DNA from: Sipunculus nudus | Lineage: Eukaryota; Annelida; Sipuncula; Golfingiida; Sipunculidae | DNA: 64,000 nt | Assembly: GCA_026874595.1 (NCBI GenBank) | Contig: CM049319.1 | Coordinates: 66,739,917 to 66,803,916, forward strand | Reading direction: 5' to 3' | Shown: one piece after another, positions 18,423 to 63,495 of the stretch | How the letters are laid out: the number at the start of each line of letters is the position of its first letter | Numbering within the stretch: the stretch's first letter is position 1 | Translations under genes and position numbers: made by a program | The notes under the pieces: generated by a model | The model's input: the letters and a program-made list of their open reading frames with translations, nothing else | Databases searched by the model: none | Told to the model about the DNA's origin: nothing

Positions 18423-19197
18423 TGTTACGGAAGCTAATATCAACAGATCACGTAGTTGTGACGAGCATAAATTTTGTTATGGAGATAAAAAAATTAGATT
18501 CGGTAAAACTAGGCATCGTGAAATTTCTAGGGGAATATATAAAGAAAGAAGTCGTTGATTTTTTGTTAACAAATAATTATAATTTATTCTTAAAACAACC
18601 CTTACTTTACAATTCACTAAATCAATACAATTACACAGTATAACAACAATTTAACAGTAAATCAATACAATTACACAGTATAATAAATAGAGTGTACAGT
18701 ACCAGATCGAGTGTCCGGACCCTAGGCTTTTCTGGATACCACCACTGTCACAACTCAATAAGTCCTTTAAAACTAATAATCCACGTAAACAGCTCAAATA
18801 ATCCAAAGTAAAGCTCTTGTTATAATCTCGAAGGCAAAGTGGAGACAGTCCCACTAAATCTGCATAGAGTTCATAGAATCCCTGACACTACTGTAATTAT
18901 AGGATAGGTCAAAACTGACTCACACTCTTCCGTGTCCGCGTGAATTTATCTCTCTCTCCTCCTGCTCGGCTCTAATTACAGCCCCTATTAATAACTTTTT
19001 ATCCGAACTCCATAGAACAATACACACGTTACAGGAACACACTAGGAACATCTAGAACAAAAAACGCTGTGTTCCTTCACGTCAGATCCCACACGTGGGC
19101 CGGGCCAACTCGCACGTCTCCTATTGCAACGAACTATGCTTGCGCTAAACTGACACATACAAGACTCCTGCGCACAATAAAAGAGACACCTATAATT
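18423..19197 (-). mobile_element. Solo LTR, TGTTACG family, copy 2
   Basis: Starts TGTTACGGAAGCTAATATC on the plus strand and ends in a decayed CACCTATAATT where CACCTGTAACA is expected. The LTR sense is minus. A minus-strand AATAAA lies near 18582, and the TATA area has decayed to TTAATAGGGGC. An internal tandem of AAATCAATACAATTACACAG (18624 and 18659) is peculiar to this copy. It is the most degraded of the four solo LTRs. Confidence 0.82.
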
Positions 19198-19259
19198 TTT
19201 TTTTTTATTTTTCAGATGTTTAAACATATAGAACCTACCTTATCTTAAAATTCATGCGC

Positions 19260-19345
19260 TTGACTGTGTTGTTATTCCTCTTCTACTTCTAAAATAAACG
19301 AAAACGGCTCACGGGATTCATAAACAGAGAAGAACCTATGGAGCA
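19260..19345 (+). mobile_element. Second Penelope-like terminal fragment
   Basis: TTATTCCTCTTCTACTTCTA and ATTCATAAACAGAGAAGAACC repeat, with divergence, the 60 bp that end at 18422. The LTR therefore lies between two copies of the same sequence. Confidence 0.4.
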
Positions 19346-19870
19346 GTGCGAATGCTCAGGGAGAATTTACTGTGGCCAAAACGTATCCTTTTGTAATTGG
19401 CGAACAATAATTGGAAGCCTCGCCCGGAGCCCACAGCTGAGCGATTATAGGAAATTAGCTATTGAGAGATCTACCTTGGACATTAGGTCAGGGGAAAAAT
19501 ATAAGTTGCAAATCTGTCACCTACTAATATAATAATGTGTCCAGAGGTCAGTTCTTGAAAATCAGCCATATTTGAGATTTTACCGGACAGGAAAAAATTA
19601 AACGATTAATTTGCACATTGAAACTTAAGAACGCTTATCCTCAGAAAATGTTTGACCAAAATGTTGTAATAGAAATAAACTACTCACCTCCTATAAGCGT
19701 CCCCTCCAGGCTTAATGGGGCAGGCTTAATGACGTTTCAACTCTGGTCAGTACATCGGCTCTGGGTCGACGAGAGCTCCACAGAGGCGTCGTAGAAATAT
19801 GTGAAAATATCAGACTATATTTGCATATCTTACTCCTAGATTGTGCGCAGAACTCATATTCAGAAAATAT

Positions 19871-20093
19871 GTGGAGCGTGGTGGCGTAATGGTTACGGAG
19901 CAGGACTTTTGATCGAATAGTTGTGGGTTCGAATCCCGTTCAGACCACCATCCTCTCTAGGACTTCTGGCCAAAGTCTTCACCACAAGAGTGCGTTCTCT
20001 TCACCCAGGAATGAATGGATTCTGGTCATGCATTGGCGACAGGCAAAATGTAGAATGGATAATCCTATTGCGTCTACAAAGACTTGTGTTAGG
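19871..20093 (+). mobile_element. tRNA-derived SINE with intact pol III boxes
   Basis: The A box TGGCGTAATGG (19882-19892) and B box GGTTCGAATCC (19926-19936) both fit the RNA polymerase III consensus. The head starts and ends with pairing GTGGT (19878)/ACCAC (19944) arms, like an acceptor stem. The body has a conserved-looking core, GTGCGTTCTCTTCACCCAGG and GCATTGGCGACAGG (19988-20045), reminiscent of SINE core domains. It ends where a TGTTACG mini-element begins at 20094. Confidence 0.78.
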
Positions 20094-60334: not shown

Positions 60335-60545
60335 TATTATCGTGGACGCCCTTAAATTTCTGTGTTTTTCCTGGTGACCTTAATTGAGTTTCTGTATTTT
60401 CCCGGGCACCTTAAATTTCTGATATTTCCTGGGCATCTTAAATTTCTGTACATTTCGGGGAACCCTAAATTTCTGTATTTTCCTGGGGACCTTGAGTTTC
60501 TTTATTTTGTCCCGGGCACCTTAAATTTCTGTATTTCCAAGGGCG
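60335..60545 (+). repeat. About 29-bp minisatellite, seven to eight units
   Basis: Units of TTTCCTGGGCACCTTAAATT plus TCTGTATT with small changes. The 86-residue frame over it reads repeated FPGHLKFL words and is an artefact. Confidence 0.9.
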
Positions 60546-60607
60546 CCTCCTTTCCAAGAACTTATGTGCCGAGAAGAGTGTTAAAGGCCATAATTAAGAC
60601 AATACTG

Positions 60608-61497
60608 TGTTACGGAACCTAATATCAACAATACACGTATGCGTGATGAACATAAATTTTGCCAAGGAGATAAAAAAAAACAGATTCTGTAACACTAGGC
60701 AGGGTGAAATGTCCAGGGGAATAAATAAAGAAGTCAGTGGTTTTTTGTTAACAAATAACTATAATTTATTCTTATAACAACCCTAATATTACAATACACT
60801 AAATCAATACAATGACACAGTATAAAAGCAGTATAACAGCAAATCAATACAATCACACAGTAAAAAAAAAAAAAACAAAGTGCACAGTACCTGGATACCA
60901 CTACTTTAAAATGTACTCTCTCGGAGAATAACAGTCCAATGTAAAGCTCTGTAGCAATCCCGAAAGTAAACTGATGACCAAATAAGATTCGTCGCAAATC
61001 CAGAAATAAAAATATGAAGAAAATCTATAAATGCCGCACGTATCGGAATAGGTCCCACAGACTCACTTACACACTTCTGTGTCCGTTGGAATATTCTGTC
61101 ACCTCTCTCGCGGCTCTAGAACACAGCCCCCTATTAATAACTTCCACCTAAAACCGAGAACTTTCAACTTATCGAACAGTCTAAAGAATCTACCATAATA
61201 AACAGTACACACGCGTTACAGGAACCATCCAGAAAAACGATTGCCGTGTCTTTACATATCAGGGTTCACACGTCAGCCGACCCGGCTAGGCGAGAAAAAC
61301 CCAAGCTAGCATGACAACGAGAGTTCAACCAGTACGGATTAAACTGAGAATACAATACCCGGCCAGGCGAGGCCGTTTCAACACGAGTTAAGCGTGGCAC
61401 ACAAACAAAATGCCAACAACACATGGAACATCCGTGTGCACAATAAAACAATAATCTGTAAGACCACTTGCACACAATTATTGGGACACCTGTAACA
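60608..61497 (-). mobile_element. Solo LTR, TGTTACG family, copy 3
   Basis: Plus strand runs TGTTACGGAACCTAATATC to GACACCTGTAACA, 890 bp. Flanks ACTG and ACTT are a near-match 4-bp duplication. The sense is minus: polyadenylation signal (TTTATT on plus) at 60765-60770, decayed TATA near 61143. It is about 110 bp longer than copy 4, through insertions in the U3-like half. Confidence 0.87.
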
Positions 61498-62718
61498 ACT
61501 TTTCTAAATAACAGGGCGTTTTGACGGAAGGTATAAAAAGTTATTGGACTCTTTCCTGAAGGATTTCATGCATCTTGGGTACAGATTCGGTATGGGTTGT
61601 TTTTACTGTAACAAACACTTCATTTATATATCGCTTTTACATGTCCTTATATCCGAAAATATATCATATCTTTAAATATACTATAATTAAAATGTGGCAT
61701 TAAGAATTTGCAGAAGGCTGTCGGTTTAGTCTGCAGAACGTGTGCGTGCGTTTGTGTGTTCATGTATGTTAATTCCGATGTGGACGTACAATAATTTATT
61801 GTTACTTATAGGAATCAAATCAATTGGGTATAGTTTGTAATATGCTCTTTTAAGTTTGAAGTACACACACACACATGTACAAACACAAACCCGCACGCAA
61901 CATCACACTTACACCATCCCACACTAGAACTAATGCATATATATATTCATATGTATATGTATAATATGTATATATATTAAATTACCGAGTCAGATATCAG
62001 GTATTTCTTAAAGGGAACCAATCTGCTTTAACGAAAGATATAAACAAGCTTATAAACTAAATGCTTGGTTCTCATCGTATATTATAATTTCCTGTATAAT
62101 CGCAAGAACAATAATCCGACCCCGACCCTTTGTAATGGTACTTGACAGGCCATGCGGGGGAACGATTAGATGGATCACTGGCAACAGCTGATGCTTAGTA
62201 GACCGAGAGTCAAGGGAGGTCCTGTTTATTGGACACCTGTCACGTTTGTGACGTTGGTTACGGAATCTCTGCGTGACAAACTTTCATCAAATATCAGCTT
62301 CTTATGTCGAAAATACATGCAATGATTAGGTTACCTAAATTGAAATATCTCTGGAAATCACGATGACTATTAGGCAGTTAACAAGCTTATAATGACATGT
62401 AAAAAAATATTAATTATTTTACAGAAGGTCAAGGCTGCCTCTCTCTCTCTCTCTCTCTCTCTCTCTCTCTCTCTCTCTCTCTCTCTCTCATGTGCGATAA
62501 CTTGCCAACAGGTTTGTAAATTGGCAACTTTTTTACAGAAAGCTACAAGCTTTTTACTTTTCTGATATATCCAAAAGTTGTTCGGTATGCATGCGCTCTA
62601 TAAAGCGATGGGTTGACCTACAAGAAACTCTGTGAAAAAAGGCATAATCATAGCACATGTCACTTACCAAATCAATTCCTCGGGGAAAACGTGTAACGTA
62701 AGAACTAGCTGTTGGTAT
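61498..62718. other. Unassigned noncoding DNA with microsatellites
   Basis: Contains a short CA tract (61863-61874), TATATA-rich sequence near 61937-61980 and a (CT)n at 62437-62489. It is not an LTR-element interior, because each flanking LTR has its own duplication and no primer-binding-site or coding sequence is seen. Confidence 0.5.
62437..62489. repeat. (CT)n microsatellite
   Basis: About 26 CT units. Confidence 0.97.
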
Positions 62719-63495
62719 TGTTACGGAACCTAATATAAACAGATCACGTATGGGTGATGAACACAAACCTTGTAACGGAGATAAAAAAAACAGATTCTGC
62801 AACACTAGGCAGCGGGAAATGTCTGGGGGAACGGATAAAGAAGTCAGTGTTTTTTTTGTTAACAAATAATAATAATTTATTCTTAAAACAACCCTAACAA
62901 TACAATACACTAAATCAACACAATTATACATTAAAACAGCGTTATAGCACCATTCAATATAATCACACAGAAATATAATTGTACAGTACCTCGATACCAA
63001 CACCATCACAACGATAAGTCCTTTGAATGTAAACTCTCTCGGAGAATGACAACCCAGTGGAAAGTTCTTGCCACAAAACAGAAAGTAAACTGAAGTCCAA
63101 ATGTATTAAATCTAGGAGAAAGTTCTAGAAAATCTATAATTGCCGCATTCGTCGGATAAGGTCCTGACACACGCTTTCGCTGGTATCTGCTCTGCTCTGC
63201 CCTCTGGTTATTGAAACAGCCCCTTTATATACCTACACACCCAAGCCGGGAATTTTTCACTTCTCGAACAGTCTATAAGGACCCTACTCAACAGTAAACA
63301 CGCGCTTCAGGAATTCTCTAGAAAGACATAGCCGTGTATCCCTACACATACCAGGTTCATCACGTGACCCACGACCAGGCGTGAAAACCCAAGGCTCACA
63401 TGACAACGAGAGTTCAACCAGTACGGATTAAACATAAAATGTAACAACATGACGAATTACGCCCGTGTCACACAATAAAAAGAGCACCTGTAACA
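62719..63495 (-). mobile_element. Solo LTR, TGTTACG family, copy 4 (best preserved)
   Basis: Plus strand runs TGTTACGGAACCTAATATAA to GAGCACCTGTAACA, 777 bp, with a perfect GTAT duplication (62715-62718, 63496-63499). On the sense (minus) strand a canonical TATATAAAG lies at 63224-63232, and AATAAA about 350 bp downstream at 62877-62882, giving U3-R-U5 in the right order. The 151-residue minus-strand frame (62554-63009) partly lies in flanking DNA and is not a gene. Confidence 0.92.
63224..63232 (-). promoter_or_regulatory. TATA box of the LTR promoter
   Basis: TATATAAAG followed by GGGCTGTTTC on the minus strand of LTR copy 4. Equivalent positions in copies 1 to 3 have decayed (TATATGAAG, TTAATAGGGG). 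Transcription would start about 30 bp downstream toward the polyadenylation signal. Confidence 0.6.

Follow-up and report, generated by a model that had tools for sequence, protein, structure and literature searches.

A 64,000-nucleotide stretch of the Sipunculus nudus genome (assembly GCA_026874595.1, contig CM049319.1, positions 66,739,917 to 66,803,916 of the forward strand; hereafter ‘the window’) carries three kinds of repeated element with TGTTAC-type ends: a family of long terminal repeats (LTRs), a mini-element of about 154 bp, and a non-coding fold-back element. We conclude that these very probably represent two separate insertion systems with similar ends; the first, making 4-bp target duplications, comprises the LTR family, which we assign to Gypsy, and the mini-element, which is the LTR of a gene-less terminal-repeat retrotransposon in miniature (TRIM), likely of Helenus type, whilst the second, making 5-bp duplications, comprises the fold-back and would be served by another enzyme. 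Two enzymes are indicated because the duplication is fixed at 4 bp in Gypsy and TRIM and at 5 bp in the fold-back, and because their targets differ; duplication length is a reflection of enzyme geometry. An initial annotation of the window had proposed a single integrase, and 4-bp duplications, for all three classes.

The genome searched was the assembly to which the window itself belongs (1.43 Gb, 153 contigs). A first look gave 924 candidates for the fold-back end, 3282 for the mini-element and 6090 for the long LTR; 40 of each were scored, and all genome-derived counts given here describe these best-scoring copies rather than the genome as a whole. For the fold-back, 20 genomic stretches of 9 kb were fetched. 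The two ends are present in 17, which together with the copy in the window are the 18 copies tested for a duplication; three (L015, L023 and L025) have one end absent and were left out. At the remaining 19 of the 40 fold-back places one flank was read, and one of these was not used in counting targets because its flank is identical to another. Loci L001 to L008, the first of which is the copy in the window, are repeats of fold-back places and stay outside the counts, as does L090, which duplicates the L040 place. Alongside these we analysed 39 Gypsy-family and 39 TRIM LTRs, with two Gypsy LTRs on contig 3 read separately from those 39.

The fold-back reported at 24502 by the initial annotation is real, and consists of the following parts:

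24502 to 26681, no strand assigned: fold-back element, non-coding, flanked by GGGGG on both sides (24497-24501 and 26682-26686), compatible with a duplication of 4 or 5 bp
24502 to 24583, forward strand: left inverted end of the fold-back (82 bp; complementarity to the right end 99%), with 18-bp sub-repeats running on to about 24704
26600 to 26681, reverse strand: right inverted end of the fold-back, 82 bp

These flanks had been taken for a 4-bp duplication (GGGG within a run of five), but five Gs on either side cannot separate 4 from 5 bp, and elsewhere the family makes duplications of 5 bp. A perfect 5-bp duplication surrounds 17 of the 18 copies tested, the exception (L012) having one mismatch, and a 4-bp match occurs in two of the 18, both in C or G runs; when the flanks were randomly re-paired, perfect 5-bp matches numbered 0.11 on average and 2 at most. 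The earlier expectation of 4 bp in every class does not hold, since the fold-back has another size, which is the observation that the initial annotation itself had named as telling against its proposal.

The fold-back ends read TGTTAC(A/G)ACCCATAATG, and TGTTAC(A/G) stands at 33 of the 34 ends of 17 copies, the remaining end being TGTCACA, which is still of the form TGTNR. Over their first 520 bp, pairs of copies are up to 100% identical across contigs (median pair 93%, lowest 70%), and near-identical copies lie on different contigs; therefore some of them have moved recently. The 17 genomic copies range from 979 to 3873 bp, with a longest reading frame of at most 147 aa; that of the window copy, the longest at 153 aa, runs through an (AT)n stretch, and one long copy, viewed in all six frames, shows many stops and microsatellites. 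Of seven fold-back frames submitted to Pfam, six gave no match and one gave two matches that fall short of the threshold, at E 0.02 and E 0.21. A scan of viral contigs for the 17-base sub-repeat returned 0 stretches, and the family was not recognised among the papers listed by literature searches, which worked by words rather than by sequence. At L023, a part of the fold-back is present three times in the same orientation (at about 214, 2062 and 3933), spaced by 1.85-1.87 kb as a short tandem array.

The long LTRs form one family by self-BLAST, as had been noted (copies at 332, 18423, 60608 and 62719), to which we add a fragment at 56270-56377, placed by self-BLAST at 56273-56377; their usual length is about 780 bp:

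332 to 1133, forward (sense) strand: solo LTR, Gypsy family, 4-bp duplication AGGT at 328-331 and 1134-1137
18423 to 19200 (right end approximate), reverse strand: decayed LTR, Gypsy family, duplication unreadable
56270 to 58922, forward strand: broken Gypsy-family copy, with an LTR fragment to 56377 and an internal match at 57825-58922
60608 to 61497, reverse strand: divergent LTR, Gypsy family, flanks ACTG/ACTT
62719 to 63495, reverse strand: solo LTR, Gypsy family, 4-bp duplication GTAT at 62715-62718 and 63496-63499

The duplications AGGT and GTAT, along with the ATAC around a TRIM LTR described below, read just as first given; the copies at 60608, with only ACTG/ACTT, and at 18423, with its decayed right end, support no duplication size. 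The LTR at 18423 lies between the two copies of a direct repeat some 54 bp long (18369-18422 and 19278-19330), which by eye are similar but not identical. In the broken copy, the stretch 57825-58922 matches a part of the Gypsy family that starts in the protease region and reaches into the integrase, and that between 56377 and 57825 is gag-like by eye only.

On contig 3, two Gypsy LTRs lie about 5.2 kb apart with TCAG on both outer sides and with a primer site and purine tract inside. One internal piece of this copy (L070) matches Integrase_H2C2 (1e-23) and rve (3.1e-11), that is, the zinc finger and core of an integrase, and the adjoining piece (L069) matches Integrase_p58_C (9.2e-10), then RVT_1 (5e-37) and RT_RNaseH_2 (5.7e-31); integrase is thus placed upstream of reverse transcriptase, in an order read across the adjoining pieces from L070 to L069. 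We assign the family to Gypsy by its predicted domains, namely a GPY-like C-terminus and RNase H, and not by a tree. Gmr1-type Gypsy elements, as portrayed in PMC6238403 and PMC8220671, also have integrase upstream of reverse transcriptase, a likeness in gene order and not one drawn from a tree. Solo-looking LTRs, here meaning the 25 of 39 with neither primer site nor purine tract alongside, have a perfect 4-bp duplication in 18 cases and a perfect 5-bp duplication in none. Two LTRs on contig 14 (L100 and L101, about 172 kb apart) are alike in their flanks and in having CAGG duplications, and are probably one insertion copied by segmental duplication.

The third class, the TRIM, is represented in the window by one two-LTR copy and one solo LTR:

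20094 to 20426, forward strand: two-LTR TRIM copy, 333 bp, 4-bp duplication TAGG at 20090-20093 and 20427-20430
20094 to 20249, forward strand: 5' LTR of that copy
20253 to 20270, forward strand: primer-binding site, tRNA-Pro type, beginning TGGGGGCTCGTCC
20357 to 20372, forward strand: purine tract ahead of the 3' LTR, limits approximate
20373 to 20426, forward strand: 3' LTR, internally deleted, 54 bp
43840 to 43993, forward strand: solo TRIM LTR, 4-bp duplication ATAC at 43836-43839 and 43994-43997

Three separate mini-elements had been listed here (20094, 20372 and 43840), of which that at 43840 stands and the other two are the LTRs of a single copy; we reject 20372 as an independent element, since what stands there is the 3' LTR, shortened by a deletion and with a purine tract ahead of it. 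The solo LTR at 43840 has G instead of A as its last base, and self-BLAST pairs it with 20094 at 87% over 148 bp. Aligned copies from the genome often have AAATGGGGGCTCGTCC after them (the primer site) or CTCTTAAGAGGGGGTG before them (the purine tract); the primer site stands beside 17 of the 39 LTRs and the purine tract beside 13, with one or the other beside 30, and at L047 two direct LTR copies surround a short internal region. Five primer sites were read, of which two (L038 and L039) are the full 18-base complement of what we take to be the tRNA-Pro 3' end and three diverge after 13 bases; at L038 all 18 of 18 positions are complementary.

Solo-looking TRIM LTRs show a perfect 4-bp duplication in seven of nine cases, one of them in (AT)n, and a 5-bp duplication in none of nine; by appearance, the two that fail have a decayed purine tract (L031) or a decayed primer site (L083) alongside. 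Both two-LTR copies have 4 bp, namely ACCG/ACCG at L047 and the TAGG/TAGG of the window copy.

In PMC10886601, Helenus elements are TRIMs with tRNA-derived LTRs, whose animal members duplicate 4 bp and whose bivalve members use primers that include tRNA-Pro among others. Several traits set out there recur in the TRIM described here, these being short LTRs, a tRNA primer site, a purine tract, the lack of genes, promoter-like boxes in the LTR at some of the loci, the 4-bp duplications of the animal members, and solo LTRs. Where Helenus LTRs are tRNA-derived, neither ARAGORN in the window nor Rfam in part of the window and five loci recognised a tRNA here, so that a tRNA-derived LTR is shown in part only. 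We regard the TRIM as likely to be of Helenus type by anatomy and description, not by sequence comparison. The biv-TRIM of bivalves, as characterised in PMC6934838, is likewise a small LTR element of animals that lacks genes and has solo terminal repeats; its canonical primer site is described there as not unambiguously identifiable, whereas the TRIM here has a plain site of tRNA-Pro type.

Target preference separates the same two groups. Fold-back duplications average 66% GC, and at 17 sites the third base ahead of the duplication is A in 11 and the third base beyond it T in 15, with G as the first duplicated base in eight and C as the last in ten. Eighteen further half-sites, all distinct and independent of these, had A at -3 in nine cases, G as the first base in nine and C as the last base in nine (p = 0.03, 0.006 and 0.002, respectively, with base frequencies measured in the sample; 0.09, 0.002 and 0.002 with assumed frequencies). 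Gypsy and TRIM targets, by contrast, are AT-rich, with A first in 15 of 18 Gypsy and six of seven TRIM duplications, T last in 13 of 18 Gypsy duplications, and A first in 8 of 14 Gypsy and 19 of 30 TRIM flanks that were read on one side.

The shared ends that the initial annotation had observed are real: TGTTACG occurs at 17 sites in the window, against a shuffle mean of 7.88 (sd 2.61, maximum 15; 0 of 100 shuffles reach 17), and ten of these sites are element ends (1127, 18423, 20094, 20373, 20420, 24502, 26675, 43840, 60608 and 62719). The other seven, judged as a group, come to about the chance number from the shuffles and were rejected as element ends; the facing pairs 27832/36637 and 40757/41456 among the candidates had flanks unmatched by eye in self-BLAST. 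All three families are alike for about seven terminal bases, TGTTAC followed by A or G, and diverge beyond. Gypsy LTRs and Ginger transposons both have ends of the form TGTNR according to PMC2836005, and the seven shared bases, because they extend this form, are a weak sign of a common enzyme.

That one integrase might move all three classes gains from these TGTTAC(A/G) ends, and only a few bases at the tip are read by integrases of the retroviral type; set against it are the 5-bp duplications in 17 of 18 fold-back copies versus none of 25 Gypsy LTRs and none of 9 TRIM LTRs, and a target preference in the fold-back unlike that of the other two, such that we consider it very improbable. In part, the idea survives: on indirect evidence, one integrase may serve both the Gypsy LTR and the TRIM, which have in common 4-bp duplications, AT-rich A-first targets, starts of TGTTAC(A/G)GG, a primer site of tRNA-Pro type and a G-rich purine tract, and probably does not serve the fold-back. 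The network of three parasites that had been envisaged is accordingly unsupported, but a network of two, Gypsy and TRIM, is plausible. It is more improbable still, to the point of being hardly credible, that the mini-element is a miniature inverted-repeat transposable element or a short interspersed element (SINE), dependent for its movement on a DNA transposase or a long interspersed element (LINE), and no LTR at all; it is short, occurs in many copies, and has 7-bp inverted ends, a hairpin inside and boxes resembling those of promoters (an A-like string at 13 of 20 loci, a B-box pattern at 13 and both at eight), as such elements might be, yet primer sites follow 17 and purine tracts precede 13 of the 39 copies, and L047 has two direct LTRs around its short internal region.

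What moves the fold-back is a question on which we can offer a number of more or less tentative answers. It could have arisen, as a non-autonomous form, from a Ginger2/TDD-like transposon whose transposase is a Gypsy-like integrase, and this we hold to be possible, if somewhat doubtful. Both Ginger1 and Ginger2/TDD, in the account given in PMC2836005, resemble it in having TGTNR ends, which the fold-back ends fit, and inverted repeats; TDD-4 and TDD-5 duplicate 5 bp in the same account, and Ginger2 is listed as duplicating 4 or 5 bp in PMC10045372. However, Ginger1 is described as duplicating a 4-bp CCGG or CCGT and animal Ginger2 4 bp within RTATAY (PMC2836005), whereas the fold-back duplicates five GC-rich bases of varied sequence in 17 of 18 copies, and no integrase was found in or near the fold-back copies read. 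Its long inverted ends, built of short tandem sub-repeats, could instead point to another DNA-transposon superfamily, such as one that is Mutator- or P-like, with the TGTTAC ends a coincidence. Sub-repeated long inverted ends do occur in fold-back derivatives of those superfamilies; saying this, the superfamilies mostly duplicate about 8-10 bp and the fold-back is fixed at 5 bp, and we think such an origin rather unlikely. Unlikely, too, is a recently active system with TGTTAC ends like those of retroviruses and a fixed 5-bp stagger, in which an integrase-type transposase from outside the animal Ginger groups spreads sub-repeated fold-backs beside an unrelated 4-bp Gypsy/TRIM pair that has those seven bases at its ends as well.

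Synthesising these observations, we suggest a model in which the two insertion systems operate side by side. A Gypsy family with LTRs of about 780 bp and integrase before reverse transcriptase would insert with a 4-bp stagger, and the TRIM would borrow the machinery of this family, or that of a similar Gypsy family; its RNA, primed by tRNA-Pro, would be copied into DNA between two short LTRs and then inserted, again with a 4-bp stagger. Mobilisation by Gypsy has been proposed for animal Helenus TRIMs (PMC10886601); that this TRIM uses the window's own family is our inference. The fold-back would be a recently active non-autonomous transposon, with long inverted sub-repeated ends and a 5-bp stagger, inserted by a different DDE-type transposase encoded elsewhere, presumably one of the TG..CA type. 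Established by the observations are the anatomy of the elements, the sizes of their duplications, the domains encoded by one Gypsy copy, and the primer sites and purine tracts.

A number of observations weigh against the model. No transposase coding region was found in the fold-back copies read, though a coding copy may exist elsewhere in the genome. Amongst the Gypsy LTRs, seven of the 25 lack a perfect 4-bp duplication, four of the 18 duplications lie in (AT)n and are uninformative on length, and L100 and L101, with their identical flanks, look like a single insertion; T is last in only three of seven TRIM duplications. The bodies of the TRIM and Gypsy LTRs are unlike, and in Gypsy the primer site matches tRNA-Pro imperfectly and at a spacing that differs from that of the TRIM. 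A single enzyme might in principle vary its stagger, as in the families of IS481EU, which are listed in PMC10045372 with duplications of several lengths. Here, the difference between 4 and 5 bp tracks the family and not the individual copy.

Elsewhere in the window, by eye, there are a tRNA-derived SINE-like stretch with a GGTTCGAATCC box (19878-19950) and, on the reverse strand, reading frames resembling a fragment of a LINE reverse transcriptase (35447-35932) and a LINE first-ORF (open reading frame) protein (38995-39660). A tandem array of units of about 22 bp occupies 52491-54762, with 87-92% identity between shifted copies.

The outcome, then, is two known kinds of element, Gypsy and a Helenus-like TRIM, together with one young fold-back family. 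Agreement over a few terminal bases is not enough to tell which enzyme mobilises an element, but duplication length, read over many copies, separates the systems cleanly. For this worm, the analysis adds a young fold-back family, and brings together in one genome a likely Helenus-type TRIM and a candidate Gypsy helper, so that the dependence of the one upon the other is now testable.

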